From assembly GCF_000521785.1 (NCBI RefSeq), contig NZ_JALZ01000020.1:1-45411 (forward strand): a stretch of 45,411 bases of DNA, given 5' to 3'. Of the stretch, positions 503-19,304 are shown piece after piece. The position numbers and the translations under genes are program-made. The first letter of the stretch is position 1; each line of letters starts with the position of its first letter. Source of the DNA: Roseivivax halodurans JCM 10272. GTDB lineage: Bacteria; Pseudomonadota; Alphaproteobacteria; Rhodobacterales; Rhodobacteraceae. The notes beneath the pieces were generated by a model. The model saw nothing but the letters and a program-made list of their open reading frames with translations, did no database searches and was not told where the DNA came from.

Positions 503-531
503 TTGACGGGTCTGTACCTTTCGTGTCCTTT
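503..531 (+). promoter_or_regulatory. Possible promoter of the riboswitch operon
   Basis: TTGACG at 503-508 is a good -35 hexamer. A 17-base spacer leads to 526-531 (TCCTTT), a poor -10. Transcription from here would begin right at the riboswitch. It is the only -35-like element in the short gap between the hairpin and the aptamer. Confidence 0.3.
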
Positions 532-535
532 GCTC

Positions 536-712
536 GCGTCGGTTCTCCGCGAGGAGATGAAAAGGGAATCCGCAGCATTTCGCTTCATGCGACATGCCAA
601 CCGGAACTGCCCCCGCAACTGTAGGCGGTGAGCCTCGGTCCGAAGATGCCACTGGGCCCCATGCCCGGGAAGGCCGGACCGGCGACGACCCGCCAGTCAG
701 GAGACCTGCCGG
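536..712 (+). promoter_or_regulatory. Cobalamin riboswitch (leader of the importer operon)
   Basis: The stretch has the conserved order of the AdoCbl aptamer: a G-rich 5' arm, GCCCCCGCAACTGTAGGCGG (608-627), the GCCACTGGG segment near 648-656, GGGAAGGCC, and the B12 box CCAGTCAGGAGACCTGCC at 693-710. It is on the plus strand upstream of the ABC importer. In this class, bound cobalamin normally lowers expression of the downstream genes. A GC-rich hairpin at 728-745 (CCGGGC / GCCCGG) lies just downstream and could be part of the expression platform. The 5' limit is approximate because I could not pair P1 with confidence. Confidence 0.9.
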
Positions 713-752
713 CATTTGACCGTAACACCGGGCGGGGTTGCCCGGGGGAAGG

Positions 753-911
753 ATGCCGATGACCGTCTCAGATCGCATGCCGGTTCCGCGTGATGCGGAC
801 AGCCGCCCTCTGCCGTTCGGCGCATTCAGATTGCCTCACAGCCCGAACGCCCGGATTCCAGAAATCCGGAGAAAATCATGTTCTATCGCATCGTCGCGCC
901 AGCGGCACTGA
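753..911 (+). other. Possible leader ORF between riboswitch and importer
   Basis: An open frame of 52 codons starts at ATG 753 (or 759) just behind a purine-rich GGGGGAAGG and ends at TGA 909-911, so it overlaps the first 34 bases of the binding-protein gene in another frame. The product resembles nothing I know. If translated it could couple the riboswitch to initiation at 878; it may equally be chance in GC-rich DNA. Confidence 0.2.
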
Positions 912-1894
912 TTGCGTCGGTCGGCCTTCCGGCCGTCGCTCAATCCACAGACTTCCCGCTCGAGGTCCAGAATTGCGGGCAGGCTGTAACGTTCGATGCG
1001 GCGCCGCAAAGCGCTGTCACCGTCGGGCAATCGGCGACTGAGATCCTCTACTCGCTCGGCCTTGCCGATAGGGTTTCGGGCACATCAGTCTGGTTCAGCC
1101 CCGTGCTACCCGAGTTCGCAGAGGTCAACGCTGGTATCGAGCGACTGGCCGACAACGACCCTAGTTTCGAGAGTGTCGCGAACAAGGAGCCGGGCCTCGT
1201 TGCGGTACAATACGAATGGCACGTCGGTCCGTCCGGCATCGTCGCCACGCGCGAGCAATTCCACGACCTCGGGATTCCGACGTACATCCTGCCCGCGGAT
1301 TGCGACACCAAGGACAACACAACCGGTGGCGACGGCACCCGCACTTCGGCTTTCTCACCCGAGTCGGTCTACAAGGGCGTTCGCGAGCTCGCGGCGATCT
1401 TCGACGTGCCGAGCGCAGGCGATGAGCTGATAGCCGAGCTGCAGCAGCGTGAGGAAGACGCAATCGCGTCAGCTAAGGAACTCGATCTGCCCGACGGAAT
1501 ATCGGCGGCGTTCTGGTTCTCTTCCGCCGATCTCGAGATCGATCCCTACATGGCCGGTCAGAAAGGTGCGCCGGGCTACATGATGTCGAAGCTCGGCATT
1601 GAAAATGTCGTGACCTCGGACGAGGAATGGCCGACCATCGGGTGGGAAACGATCGCCCGCGCGGATCCGACCGTCCTCGTGATCGCCGAGATGGATCGCC
1701 GCCGCTTCCCTGCCGACGACATCGACAAGAAAATGGAGTTCCTGCGCACCGATCCTGTCGCAAGCCAAATGACTGCGGTGCGCGAGGGCCGGATCGTGGT
1801 GATGGACGCCCACGCGATGAGCGCGACCATGCGCACCATCTTCGGGCTGGAAACACTGTCTGAGGCGCTCGCCGGGTTCGACTTCGGCGCATGA
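878..1894 (+). CDS. BtuF/FecB-like periplasmic binding protein of a corrinoid-type ABC importer
   Basis: The 338-residue product has a signal peptide (residues 1-21, cut after AVAQ) and then the layout of cluster A-II binding proteins (PF01497 type): an N-terminal QNCGQAVTF start, an early lobe with QSATEILYSLGLADRVSG, a long linking region and a C-terminal lobe ending AGFDFGA. Proteins of this family deliver B12, haem or Fe-siderophores to a BtuCD-type permease. The fold alone does not tell the ligand; the cobalamin riboswitch directly upstream makes a corrinoid the best guess. GGAG at 868-871 gives a fair ribosome site for ATG 878. The stop overlaps the permease start by 4 bases (ATGA), so the two are translationally coupled. 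Confidence 0.85.
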   Translation: MFYRIVAPAALIASVGLPAVAQSTDFPLEVQNCGQAVTFDAAPQSAVTVGQSATEILYSLGLADRVSGTSVWFSPVLPEFAEVNAGIERLADNDPSFESVANKEPGLVAVQYEWHVGPSGIVATREQFHDLGIPTYILPADCDTKDNTTGGDGTRTSAFSPESVYKGVRELAAIFDVPSAGDELIAELQQREEDAIASAKELDLPDGISAAFWFSSADLEIDPYMAGQKGAPGYMMSKLGIENVVTSDEEWPTIGWETIARADPTVLVIAEMDRRRFPADDIDKKMEFLRTDPVASQMTAVREGRIVVMDAHAMSATMRTIFGLETLSEALAGFDFGA

Positions 1895-2940
1895 CGCAAG
1901 CGGCGGCCTATTCGGCGGCACGACGGAAGCTGCACTGGGGGTGGATCACTCCCCCGGTGCTCTTCGCTGCCATTATTGCCGGCGCGACGATCGGCGAGAC
2001 GCGGATTCCTGTCGCGACGGTGCTTCAGGTGCTGGGCAACAATCTCCTTGGAACCGACTACGCAGTGGGGCGCATCGACGCGGGCATCGTCTGGGACTAC
2101 CGTGTCAGCCGGGCAGTTGTGGCGGCCTGCTGCGGAGCGGGGCTCGCGCTCTCCGGGGTCGTGCTGCAGGCGCTGCTGCGCAATGCGCTCGCCGATCCCT
2201 ACCTTTTGGGCATCTCCGCCGGTGCCTCGACCGGGGCGGTTGCGGTCACCGTCGCCGGCGTCGGTGCGGGCGTCATCTCGCTTTCGGTCGGCGCATTCGC
2301 GGGCGCGACTCTGTCCTTTCTCCTTGTCGCCGCGCTCGCGCGAGCGGCTGGAGGCGGTATGGGAGTCCGAGGCGCAGGCGTGATCGTCCTTGCCGGGATC
2401 GCAGGATCGCAGCTCTTTAACGCGCTGACCGCTTTCGTCATCGCCAAGTCCGCAAACGCCGAGCAGGCGCGGGGCATCATGTTCTGGCTGATGGGAAATC
2501 TCTCCGGTGTCAGATGGGATGACGTGTGGCTGGCGGTTCCGGCCGCCGCACTAGGGCTTGGCGCCTGCCTCTGGCATGTCCGGTCGCTCGATGCGTTCAC
2601 CTTCGGCGCAGGCAGCGCAGCTTCGCTCGGGGTCCCGGTGCGCCGGGTTCAGATCGTCCTCATCGGTCTGGCGGCGCTCGTGACGGCGGCGATGGTGTCG
2701 ATGGTCGGCTCTATCGGCTTTGTCGGATTGGTTGTTCCGCATGCGATGCGTTTTGTCGTTGGCGTACGCCACGCGCGACTTGTGCCAGCCTCGGCGCTGG
2801 CGGGCGCGGTCTTTCTAATTGTGTCCGACATCCTGTCTCGGGTCTTGGTCCCGGGGCAGGTCTTGCCCATCGGTGTCATCACTGCACTCGTTGGGGCGCC
2901 TGCCTTCGCACTCATTCTTGTTCGGGGAAGGGCGCGATGA
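1891..2940 (+). CDS. FecCD/BtuC-family ABC permease
   Basis: This 349-residue polytopic protein has about nine or ten hydrophobic segments and the FecCD family hallmarks: RVSRAVVAACCGAGLALSG early on, the QALLRNALADPYLLGISAGA block near residues 90-112, and GSIGFVGLVVPHAMR near 270, which forms the coupling and gate region. It forms the inner-membrane channel of the importer with the ATPase that follows. Length fits the family (about 330-350). It overlaps the binding-protein gene and the ATPase gene by 4 bases each (ATGA), which fixes both ends of the reading frame and supports one operon under the 536-712 riboswitch. Confidence 0.9.
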   Translation: MTQAAAYSAARRKLHWGWITPPVLFAAIIAGATIGETRIPVATVLQVLGNNLLGTDYAVGRIDAGIVWDYRVSRAVVAACCGAGLALSGVVLQALLRNALADPYLLGISAGASTGAVAVTVAGVGAGVISLSVGAFAGATLSFLLVAALARAAGGGMGVRGAGVIVLAGIAGSQLFNALTAFVIAKSANAEQARGIMFWLMGNLSGVRWDDVWLAVPAAALGLGACLWHVRSLDAFTFGAGSAASLGVPVRRVQIVLIGLAALVTAAMVSMVGSIGFVGLVVPHAMRFVVGVRHARLVPASALAGAVFLIVSDILSRVLVPGQVLPIGVITALVGAPAFALILVRGRAR

Positions 2941-3710
2941 ACCTGAGTTGTGAAAACCTCGGCTGGTCCGTTCGCGGACAGTCCATCGTCGATGGCGTAA
3001 CGCTCGAGGTTCGCGAGGGCGAGACGCTCGGCCTCATCGGTCCGAACGGGTCGGGCAAGTCGACGCTGCTGAAAATGCTGGCAGGTATCCAGCGGCCGAT
3101 GAGGGGCAAGGTCATGCTCGGCCAACGCTCGCTTGGTGATCTGCCGCAACGGGAGGTCGCACGGGGCATCGCATTGGTTGAGCAGCAGGCGGATACAGCA
3201 GACCGCATCACCGTGCGGGACGCCGTGGAGCTTGGCCGGACACCGTGGCTCTCGGCATTGCGTCCTTGGTCGGAGGACGACAGTCGTATCGTGGCGCGGG
3301 CGCTCGATGCGGTCGAGATGACGGCGTTCGACGGGCGTCCATGGCACACGCTCTCGGGTGGTGAGCGCCAGCGAGTTCACATTGCGAGAGCGCTTGCGCA
3401 GGAGCCGCGAATCCTCCTTTTGGACGAGCCGACGAACCACCTCGATATCCATCATCAGCTTTCGATCCTCGATCTCGTCCGCAAACTGCCCACCACGAAT
3501 GTGGTCGCGCTGCACGATCTGAATCAGGCGATGGAATGCGACCGGATTGCGTTGATGCATCGGGGGCATTTGGTCGCGCTCGGCATGCCGGAGGAGGTTT
3601 TGACATCCGATCGGCTGCGGCGAGTTTTCGCCGTCTCAGCGCGCGTGATGATAGATCCAGACGACGGCAGGCGCCTCTTTAGATTTCACAGACTGGAGCA
3701 AATGTCTTGA
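2937..3710 (+). CDS. BtuD/FecE-like ABC transporter ATPase
   Basis: A 257-residue nucleotide-binding subunit. Walker A is GPNGSGKST, the ABC signature is LSGGERQRV, and Walker B is ILLLDEPTNHLD, followed by the switch histidine in VALHDLN. These are all intact, so it should power the neighbouring permease. The frame stays open far upstream (to 2526), but that part lies inside the permease gene; ATG 2937 overlaps the permease stop (ATGA) and begins the normal family N-terminus MNLSCENLGWSVRG. The 3' end forms a TGATG overlap with the cupredoxin gene. B12 as substrate is inferred from the riboswitch. Confidence 0.9.
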   Translation: MNLSCENLGWSVRGQSIVDGVTLEVREGETLGLIGPNGSGKSTLLKMLAGIQRPMRGKVMLGQRSLGDLPQREVARGIALVEQQADTADRITVRDAVELGRTPWLSALRPWSEDDSRIVARALDAVEMTAFDGRPWHTLSGGERQRVHIARALAQEPRILLLDEPTNHLDIHHQLSILDLVRKLPTTNVVALHDLNQAMECDRIALMHRGHLVALGMPEEVLTSDRLRRVFAVSARVMIDPDDGRRLFRFHRLEQMS

Positions 3711-4141
3711 TGCTTAAATTCGCTACGATCGCGCTCGCGCTCGCTTCTGGCCCCGCGCTTGCCGAAATGCACGAGGTCGAAATGCTGACGCGGGGAGAGA
3801 CAGGAGCGATGGTCTACGAGCCTGCGCGTATCTCGATCGCGCCGGGCGATACGGTCAGGTTTGTGGCGGCGCAGCCCGGCCACAACGCGGCTACGATCGA
3901 CGGAATGATCCCCGAGAAAACCGAGCGCTTTACTGGAAACATCAACGAAAAGATCGAGGTGACGCTCCGTGAGGAGGGCGTCTACGGCATCAAGTGCTCG
4001 CCTCATTTCGCGATGGGCATGGTCATGCTGATCGAGGTGGGCGAGGCCGAAACGTCCCCGGCGGACCTGCCGGACGACTTGCCGCCGCGCGCGAGAGAGC
4101 GGTTTCTAAATATCATCGCAGGCGAGACTGATGGTGCTTGA
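3710..4141 (+). CDS. Pseudoazurin-like cupredoxin in a B12-riboswitch operon
   Basis: The 143-residue product has a signal peptide ending ALA-E (residues 1-18) and a blue-copper domain. The four type-1 copper ligands of pseudoazurin are visible: His58 in PGHNA, Cys96 and His99 in CSPHFAMGM, and Met104. Pseudoazurins are periplasmic one-electron carriers, usually for denitrification enzymes. Nothing for denitrification is near; instead the gene is the last of the importer operon and its ATG overlaps the ATPase stop (TGATG), so it is probably made under B12 control. A TTG three bases earlier is an alternative start. Why a corrinoid importer would need a copper protein is not known to me. Confidence 0.88.
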   Translation: MLKFATIALALASGPALAEMHEVEMLTRGETGAMVYEPARISIAPGDTVRFVAAQPGHNAATIDGMIPEKTERFTGNINEKIEVTLREEGVYGIKCSPHFAMGMVMLIEVGEAETSPADLPDDLPPRARERFLNIIAGETDGA

Positions 4142-4178
4142 GCTACGCGCCTTGTTCGGCGGGAACTGATCTCGTGGG

Positions 4179-4215
4179 CTTAAGATGTGCCGCATCGCCT
4201 GCGACACATCTCAAG
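4179..4215. terminator. Bidirectional hairpin between convergent operons
   Basis: An 11-bp stem (4179-4189 with 4205-4215, CTTAAGATGTG against CACATCTCAAG, one A-C mismatch in the plus reading and a G-U pair in the minus reading) encloses a further 4-bp CGCA/TGCG stem. It sits exactly between the stop codons of the cupredoxin (4141) and the PCuAC-like gene (4223), where both operons need to end. Confidence 0.6.
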
Positions 4216-4222
4216 CAAGGTG

Positions 4223-4711
4223 TCAGCCGACATCCTCGTCGTGATCGTGCTCTTCGTCGGCATGCTCGACTTCAACTTCGATCTCGATCTCACCGACGCC
4301 CTCGAATTCTAGATGGGCATGGAAGTGATCGCCGGCCTCTACACGCTCTTGCACGTCGTGGAAGACGATATGGATACCTCCCGGCTGCATCGTCAGCATC
4401 TGACCGGGAGCAATTTCCAAAGCAGCGATTTCACGTATCGACATCTTGCCACTGTCGTCGACACTTGGCGCCTGGAACACGCCCGGTTCGGCAAAATCGA
4501 CCTCGGCCGCGGTCAGAACCGCGGGCGTGTCGGTCGTGTTCTCGATGGTGACGAACACGTCGATCGAGTGTGCCGTCGCTCCGGCTTCGATCGTGTAGGC
4601 ATGGCTGACTACGATACCGGAATCGCGAGCGGCTTCGCCGTCGTGATGTGCTGTCACCGGAATGGCGAGGAGAAGCGCCGCGCTGGCCGCGGCGATGGTA
4701 CGCATGAACAT
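4223..4711 (-). CDS. PCuAC-like periplasmic metal chaperone with altered ligands and His-rich tail
   Basis: The 162-residue product has a signal peptide (to about A21) and a PCuAC-type domain (PF04314), seen in the ENTTDTPAVLTAAEVDFAE strand pair, the MSIREI strand, and MQPGGIHIVF near 108-117. PCuAC proteins carry Cu(I) to cytochrome oxidase through an H-x10-M-x21-H-x-M set. By my manual alignment those positions are Ala81, Ile92, His114 and Val116, so only one ligand remains. Instead there are many histidines: H22-H23, DHFHAH (129-133) and an acidic His tail (HADEEHDHDED, 150-160). A second cobalamin riboswitch is directly upstream. I chose ATG 4711 because AAAGGAAC precedes it and the signal peptide starts there. 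A cobalt or nickel role is an inference; copper is not excluded. Confidence 0.75.
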   Translation of the reverse strand: MFMRTIAAASAALLLAIPVTAHHDGEAARDSGIVVSHAYTIEAGATAHSIDVFVTIENTTDTPAVLTAAEVDFAEPGVFQAPSVDDSGKMSIREIAALEIAPGQMLTMQPGGIHIVFHDVQERVEAGDHFHAHLEFEGVGEIEIEVEVEHADEEHDHDEDVG

Positions 4712-4746
4712 CGATGTTCCTTTCCGGGGCCCTCCGCCCCTGTTGC

Positions 4747-4917
4747 AAGGTCGTCTCCGTCCTCCGGCTGGTCTCCTGGCTTGCGGGTCGCTGCGCACCT
4801 CGGCCTTCCCAATCCCTCGCGGGGATCAGTGGCGTGGGGAGGAGCGCTCGCCGCTTACAGTTGCGGGGGCAGCGCCGGAATTTCACCGGCTTCCCAATTT
4901 CTCCAAAAACGGACCTT
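4747..4917 (-). promoter_or_regulatory. Cobalamin riboswitch upstream of the PCuAC-like gene
   Basis: Read on the minus strand, P1 is AAGGTC (4917-4912) paired with GACCTT (4752-4747). Between them come GGGAAGCCGGTGAAATTCCGG, the GCCCCCGCAACTGTAAGCGG segment, CGCCACTG, GGGAAGGCC and the B12 box AAGCCAGGAGACC. All core elements of the AdoCbl aptamer are present. The only gene downstream on this strand before the convergent operon is the PCuAC-like chaperone, 36 bases further on. A GC-rich hairpin (GGGGC / GCCCC, near 4726-4741) follows the aptamer, close to the ribosome site. Confidence 0.92.
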
Positions 4918-4970
4918 CGGACGTGATCTTGATACCAAGCGGTGTCGCCACTGGCAATGTTCGCAAAACT

Positions 4971-5714
4971 TCAAGATGGTATGTCCCGACGTAGAAGATA
5001 CGTATCCATGATCCATCCGTGCCGTGCCCGTGCGGTCGCCCGGGCTTCGACGATCCTTGGCGCCGCAAGATCGAGTGGGCCGGATTCCAGCACCTGCTCC
5101 GCCATACCAAGAAACGCGCCCCACCAGATCGTCAGGTGGTCGGGCGGTAGCTGAAGGAAGCTGCACTCGCCATCGAGCATGACTGCCAAGGTTTCCGCGT
5201 TGCCGGGCCAGCCGTGGTCCCTGAGGCGTCGCCCCGTCGTGATCGTGACGGCGCCGTTCACGGTATTGAAGGGAATTTGGTGCGCGGCCGTCAGCGCCTG
5301 CAACGCAGTGATGCCCGGCACGACGTGGACACGCGGTGCGGGCGACAAACGTCCGGCAATCCGAAGCGTGCTGTCGTAGAGCCCCGGATCTCCCCAGACA
5401 AGCAGCGCGACCGGTCCCGCAACATCGCTGCGCGCGATCGTGTCCGACCAGCAGTTTGCGATTTCGTCATGCCAGTGATCCACGCGGTCCCCGTAGGGAA
5501 GAGTTTCGTCCCGGACCGGCATGTCGAATTCCGCGACGGCGGCTTTCGCTCCGGCGGCTTCGAGGATCCCGTGGCGGATGGCGGCCAGATCGTCCTTCCC
5601 GGGGCCCTTGCGCGGGATCAGGACGAGCGCCGCCTCGCGCAGCGCGCGCCGTCCCTCGAGCGTCAGGTGGTCCGGATTGCCGGTGCCTATCCCGACGAGC
5701 CACAGATCAGTCAT
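4971..5714 (-). CDS. cobF: Precorrin-6A synthase (deacetylating), C1 methyltransferase
   Basis: CobF methylates C1 of precorrin-5 with SAM and releases the acetyl group as acetate, giving precorrin-6A in the aerobic pathway. The 247-residue product starts MTDLWLVGIGTGNPDHLTLEG, the typical CobF form of the SAM methyltransferase N-terminus, and contains LVWGDPGLYDST and HVVPGITALQALTAAHQIPFN. Length agrees with the family. It overlaps the cobA 3' end by 8 bases and is the last gene of the long minus-strand operon; the next riboswitch begins about 50 bases beyond its stop. Confidence 0.95.
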   Translation of the reverse strand: MTDLWLVGIGTGNPDHLTLEGRRALREAALVLIPRKGPGKDDLAAIRHGILEAAGAKAAVAEFDMPVRDETLPYGDRVDHWHDEIANCWSDTIARSDVAGPVALLVWGDPGLYDSTLRIAGRLSPAPRVHVVPGITALQALTAAHQIPFNTVNGAVTITTGRRLRDHGWPGNAETLAVMLDGECSFLQLPPDHLTIWWGAFLGMAEQVLESGPLDLAAPRIVEARATARARHGWIMDTYLLRRDIPS

Positions 5715-18921: not shown

Positions 18922-19055
18922 TTCGGCCCCACTTCCGTCGGTGGGACGCGGGCCGGGTGACGGGCGGTATCACGGGGTCGTCGCGCAAAAGCATCGGGCG
19001 CGGACCGCAAAGGCCTCCCGACACCGGAACACCCCGTCCGGTTTCGTCGTATCGC

Positions 19056-19248
19056 GCTGGCAGGTCTCCCGGCTTGCGGATCCCGGATCGCGGCGTTGCG
19101 ATCCTGCGGTTGCCCGGCCTTCCCGGCCCGATGCGGGGCCAGTGACCATTGGGCGACCTCTCCGGTTACGGTCGCGGGGGCGGCTGCGCCTGTCCCGGGT
19201 GGCCCGGGCTACGCATTCCCATTTTCACCCGTTTACACGGGCACCAGC
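19056..19248 (-). promoter_or_regulatory. Cobalamin riboswitch of the main cob operon
   Basis: On the minus strand P1 pairs GCTGG (19248-19244) with CCAGC (19060-19056). Inside are GGGTGAAAATGGGAA, a GCCCCCGCGACCGTAACCGG segment (a variant of the usual GCAACTGTAA), GTCACTGG, GGGAAGGCCGGGC and the B12 box AAGCCGGGAGACCTGCCA (19075-19058). About 135 bases separate it from the DUF1636 start and could hold the expression platform. It should control the whole run DUF1636-cobW-cobN to cobF. The divergent cobO promoter has to fit into 19249-19304. Confidence 0.92.
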
Positions 19249-19304
19249 TTTGGCTGACATGCGCGCGAGACGCCGATCTTGTCAAGAGCGAGGAGCCGAG
19301 ACCC

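Follow-up and report, generated by a model that had tools for sequence, protein, structure and literature searches.

The PCuAC proteins (PF04314) are Cu(I) chaperones with the ligand motif H-x10-M-x21-H-x-M, and His-rich tails are known in the family. The PCuAC domains PmoF1 and PmoF2 of methanotrophs are described as binding copper through an N-terminal histidine, and precedent for the histidine brace leans to copper (PMC8424229, PMC10952591). A counterexample is the brace-type site of DUF4198, a secreted N-terminal-His protein which PMC12537917 links to Ni/Co uptake and reports as stabilised by Ni more than by Zn, by Zn more than by Co, and not by Cu. CobW is described as a cytosolic Co(II) metallochaperone for CobNST that delivers cobalt for B12 when cobalt is low (PMC7689651), and CbtAB is a membrane transporter found under the control of cobalamin riboswitches.

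The protein considered here (the variant PCuAC) resembles each of these in part. It belongs with the PCuAC Cu(I) chaperones by profile and fold and is, like them, probably secreted to the periplasm; however, it has lost the H80-M92-H114-M116 set, is preceded by a cobalamin riboswitch, and coexists with ordinary PCuAC in the genus. It shares the PCuAC fold with PmoF1/PmoF2 but has a predicted doubled N-terminal His, His48 and the riboswitch, and no methane oxidation genes were recognised by eye beside it. With CbtAB it has in common the riboswitch control and, in a second genome of the genus (G002), the same interval beside cobF, although CbtAB is a membrane transporter of an unrelated family and the variant PCuAC is soluble. 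The likeness to DUF4198 would lie in a predicted N-terminal His metal site and a probable tie to Ni/Co uptake; the family is different, and the context of DUF4198 is Ni and not B12 (PMC12537917). CobW has a role similar to the one proposed below (PMC7689651), but is a cytosolic GTPase of another family.

The window, i.e., the whole stretch of 45,411 nucleotides analysed, covers positions 1-45411 of contig C20 of the Roseivivax halodurans genome (G000). Three cobalamin riboswitches were detected in it with the Rfam covariance model RF00174, all exceeding the gathering score of 31.5 bits. The first (523..727, + strand, 112.8 bits, full model length) lies 5' of an ABC operon, and the second (4749..4933, - strand, 121.7 bits, full model length) 5' of the variant PCuAC gene (4223..4711, - strand, 162 aa), so that the two read toward each other, as the original prediction had stated. 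The third (19042..19263, - strand, 79.1 bits) precedes genes for DUF1636 (PF07845, E 1e-33), a protein we take to be CobW, and CobN (PF02514). The riboswitch of the variant PCuAC is flanked by the 3' end of cobF, encoding precorrin-6A synthase (4971..5714, - strand; TIGR02434, 275 bits, cut-off 195.8).

The ABC operon, on the + strand, consists of four genes with overlapping stop and start codons: a periplasmic substrate-binding protein (878..1894; PF01497, E 4.8e-35), a FecCD-type permease (1891..2940; PF01032, E 1.6e-80), an ATPase (2937..3710; PF00005, E 1.1e-35), and, as the final gene, a pseudoazurin (3710..4141; TIGR02375, 125.6 bits, cut-off 109.85). The 25 listed of the 209 NCBIfam matches of the ATPase were all under their cut-offs, and the sub-cut-off matches of the system were of the EitABC and F420-0 types. 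The cupredoxin with four type-1 copper ligands that had been predicted is this pseudoazurin, in which H58, C96, H99, and M104 are all present; it is a standard family member, and its gene is coupled to those of the ABC system. G002 has the same operon, pseudoazurin included (71.5% identity). The redox role put forward for it in the original prediction is hypothetical: among the fetched loci, a pseudoazurin was found in these two genomes only, with none in those of the other genomes that carry the variant PCuAC; it was not seen in the related substrate-binding protein operons of G001 and G007. Just upstream of the first riboswitch a PepSY_TM protein (1-432) runs off the contig start, and a protein with a similar stretch was noted by eye at the same place in G002.

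The whole G000 genome contains five cobalamin riboswitches. In addition to the three described above, one on contig C3 precedes an NrdI-like gene and a ribonucleotide reductase, and one on C39 precedes a separate set comprising a TonB receptor, two substrate-binding proteins and, as judged by eye, a permease and an ATPase. The gene classes usually regulated by B12 are given in the main text of PMC3766115 as B12 synthesis, B12 transport, cobalt transport, and B12-independent isozymes; the word "copper" is absent from that main text. The riboswitch targets of G000 other than the variant PCuAC and the pseudoazurin fit these classes.

The variant PCuAC matches PF04314 with an E-value of 9.5e-20 (71 bits, gathering score 29.4). 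In the family alignment its Cu(I) ligand columns hold Q80, I92, H114, and V116, whereas the ligand set is intact in 64 of the 80 sampled PCuAC genes. The loss of the motif, with His114 alone kept, had been recognised from the sequence; the residue in the first column, however, is Gln80 and not Ala81, as then proposed, neither being a ligand. Judged by these columns the protein fails as a Cu(I) chaperone; its PCuAC fold and family membership hold. The nearest solved structures in both the fold search and the single-sequence search were the histidine-brace PCuAC domains PmoF1 and PmoF2; matches of the fold search ranked below the PCuAC group were set aside as common beta-sandwich matches. Each of the nine genus members has one or more ordinary PCuAC genes whose ligands are intact, to which the variant is extra where present.

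The predicted mature chain begins with His-His, a feature absent from the original prediction, and contains 12 His, 32 Asp/Glu, and 4 Lys/Arg, with the many histidines and the acidic His-rich tail that the prediction had pointed out. Its emphasis on His114 proved misplaced: this residue is ruled out as the key ligand of the clade to which the protein belongs, because it survives only in the genus and in G051, with V, Q or A in the other clade members. All 11 full-length clade members share the likely mature N-terminal His-His, His37, and His48, and all 11 have an x-x-A|HH site, at which cleavage is predicted, following a signal-like stretch. His37, a candidate second brace residue, aligns with a histidine of PmoF1.

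The clade is well defined (support 100/100) and comprises 11 genomes from four families of one class; the original observation is real and broader than first described. From 94 profile matches, 81 rows remained after removal of matches shorter than 110 residues and sequence repeats; since one intact G004 gene was present twice (L050, L063), 80 genes were counted, 64 with the Cu(I) set intact and 16 without. The sample was drawn with a clade query and is non-random. Members of the clade are rare. In 394 sampled genomes of the family, including one other genus member, the only clade match was in the genome of the window, and 27 other genomes of this sample had a match at 1e-18, all of at most 86 bits. 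Clade matches were found in 5 of the 385 genomes of the class sample, in four of the nine genomes of the genus, and in 5 of 12 genomes of family f28. A scan of genome contigs gave two ordinary relatives and no more, viral contigs gave none, and among the matches listed in plasmid searches all were below 60% identity.

Ligand loss tracks the riboswitch, as had been anticipated. RF00174 was found upstream of nine of the 11 full-length clade members (the window, L007-L010, L095, L097, L098, and L099), which represent four families; it was absent upstream of L096 and L100 at E 0.1. None of the 64 intact genes had a riboswitch, 59 being searched with Rfam and five (L037, L085, L090, L092, and L093) with box patterns only. 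A box-pattern match before the intact G004 gene L063 did not correspond to RF00174 in the whole-genome search. The resulting contrast, 9/16 non-intact against 0/64 intact genes, has a Fisher p of 4.9e-8, with kinship ignored and the sample non-random. Ligand loss alone was rejected as a marker: L057, L065, and L014 are without the set and L068 is without one ligand, and none of them has a riboswitch. The first three are PCuAC-like proteins with a histidine at column 37 and are possibly further histidine-brace types.

In the window, 37 nt separate the end of the aptamer from the variant PCuAC gene; in the clade, six leaders have 33-42 nt between the aptamer and the start codon, and three have 120-127 nt. 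Comparison of the clade leaders revealed a hairpin between aptamer and start codon (4726..4740, - strand), just before a Shine-Dalgarno-like sequence. Its loop, GGAGG, is invariant in six of the nine riboswitch-bearing leaders, which are the six short ones, and compensatory changes in the stem preserve its two outer pairs. It is a reasonable guess that the control is translational.

The riboswitch in turn tracks CobN, which was distinguished from a second, presumably BchH-like, chelatase by identity to the window CobN (38-83% versus 27-30%). CobN is present in nine of the 11 clade genomes, exactly the nine with the riboswitch; the other two, G557 and G796, gave no CobN match at all. That these two retain the variant PCuAC with neither CobN nor an adjacent riboswitch means that the protein has some use without B12 synthesis, and its use there is likely another one. 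In both genomes (L101, L102) the gene adjoins an SDR-like gene, as judged by eye.

Within the genus, the variant PCuAC alternates with CbtBA. Four genomes (G000, G001, G003, and G004) have the variant PCuAC and CobN without CbtA (no match to PF09490 in G000), three (G002, G006, and G007) have CobN and a riboswitch-controlled CbtBA without the variant PCuAC, and two (G005 and G008) lack all three. All seven CobN genomes of the genus thus carry exactly one of the two (Fisher p 0.029 for exclusion, in a small set of related genomes). In G002 a riboswitch and the ABC operon (substrate-binding protein, FecCD permease, ATPase, and pseudoazurin, in this order) come first, a second riboswitch with CbtB, CbtA, and a His-rich protein follows, and a convergent cobF comes next; in G000 the variant PCuAC and its riboswitch occupy the pseudoazurin-cobF interval in the orientation opposite to that of CbtBA. 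The riboswitch and CbtBA likewise adjoin cobF in G006 and G007. G002 and G000 group on the CobN tree (100/100), on which the two states require three changes, with two of the four inner forks weak (44/0). A BchH tree was discarded, since its inner branches of 1.2-1.7 changes meant that the longest frame represented different genes in different rows. In G001, G003, and G004 the variant PCuAC and the CobN cluster are on different contigs; G003 has just two cobalamin riboswitches, one on the variant PCuAC and one on the DUF1636-cobW-cobN cluster. CbtA is found in two of the 11 clade genomes (G797 and G798), together with the variant PCuAC, and in three of the five genus members that lack the variant. 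The small His-rich protein that follows CbtBA in three genus members (L148:15151-15657, - strand; L149:15171-15647, - strand; L147) has a probable N-terminal membrane anchor and, in the two cases tested, no Pfam match; possibly it binds cobalt in the periplasm as a partner of CbtAB.

The variant PCuAC probably helps to gather cobalt for making vitamin B12. On balance we favor a periplasmic Co(II)-binding chaperone serving B12 synthesis, the metal being assigned from context. Cobalt, although unproven, is by that context the best supported metal, because ligand loss tracks the riboswitch, the riboswitch tracks CobN, and the variant PCuAC alternates with CbtBA. The cobalt link of the original prediction of a scavenger for B12 gains support on these grounds, its metal remaining a matter of context. 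Of the conditions that would have spoken against that prediction, an intact Cu(I) ligand set was ruled out by the alignment, and no cytochrome oxidase gene was recognised by eye among the neighbors, a minority of which were scanned by profile. A PCuAC copper chaperone would have lost its Cu(I) His/Met site and become a secreted periplasmic metal binder. The mature N-terminal His-His, His37, and His48 may have supplied the new ligands, arranged much as in a histidine brace, a geometry suggested by sequence comparison, with assistance from His129/His131 and, in the genus, also from the acidic His-rich tail. Repression is usual for the cobalamin riboswitch class, and a shortage of B12 would accordingly permit synthesis of the protein if the sense is the same here. 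It would then bind periplasmic Co(II) and pass or concentrate the metal for uptake across the inner membrane, after which CobN would insert cobalt into the corrin ring.

Being soluble, the variant PCuAC cannot carry cobalt across a membrane and therefore must work with a transporter. Candidate partners are NicO or another transporter family. Each of the nine genus members has NicO (PF03824), whether or not it makes B12, and so does G051; the other clade genomes gave no match, nor did the searched genomes of f28 and f131, a distribution that counts against the proposal. A more specific version, which we regard as tentative, is that of a dedicated periplasmic cobalt metallochaperone, with a copper-chaperone fold and a histidine-brace-like site, that replaces CbtAB in the B12 regulon by way of a different transporter. 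The replacement idea is weakest in that a soluble protein alternates with a membrane transporter, and the presence of both in G797 and G798 counts against it; lineages with another transporter may need a chaperone.

A copper function, in which the protein would bind Cu(II) through a histidine brace, as in PmoF1/PmoF2, and serve, for example, the pseudoazurin or a copper step when B12 is scarce, appears rather unlikely. The description of N-terminal-His PmoF domains, the nearest solved structures, as copper-binding (PMC8424229, PMC10952591) does speak for copper and counts against cobalt, and a pseudoazurin shares the window locus, yet the loci fetched from the other clade genomes showed none. 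Moreover, all nine riboswitch-bearing clade genomes encode CobN, the partner in alternation is CbtBA and no copper gene, and the genus is already provided with intact PCuAC throughout.

All-His and acidic ligands would suit several divalent metals, and DUF4198 is reported to prefer Ni (PMC12537917). It is nonetheless improbable that the variant PCuAC binds Ni(II), Zn(II) or several such metals as a buffer of the periplasm, with the riboswitch serving general metal sparing: the two clade genomes without CobN and an adjacent riboswitch could be read in this way, but the B12 control and the CobN tie point to cobalt. Least credible is a by-product without any part in cobalt supply, i.e., a single unit of riboswitch and gene that has spread by horizontal transfer. 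The rarity of the clade (5/385 class genomes) and its scattered positions would agree with such spread; the adjacent riboswitch, however, is missing exactly where CobN is missing, and the alternation with CbtBA involves three changes on the CobN tree.

In the open-licence literature, no paper combined "cobalamin riboswitch" with "PCuAC", and none was seen, judged mostly from titles and the starts of abstracts, to connect PCuAC with B12 or the uptake of cobalt; on cobalamin biosynthesis together with cobalt chaperones or cobalt-binding proteins of the periplasm, only the CobW review (PMC7689651) was found. Little is known about how B12-making cells secure scarce periplasmic cobalt in competition with copper, nickel, and zinc. 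If its site has shifted from Cu(I) to a divalent metal, the variant PCuAC, whose role the B12 riboswitch would mark, offers a natural test of how metal-site specificity changes, and it cautions against taking the annotation "copper chaperone PCu(A)C" at face value. G004 carries, in addition, a second, truncated copy of the variant PCuAC without a signal peptide (L042:3811-5841), which adjoins an IS66 transposase gene and has a cobalamin riboswitch about 2.6 kb upstream on the same strand.
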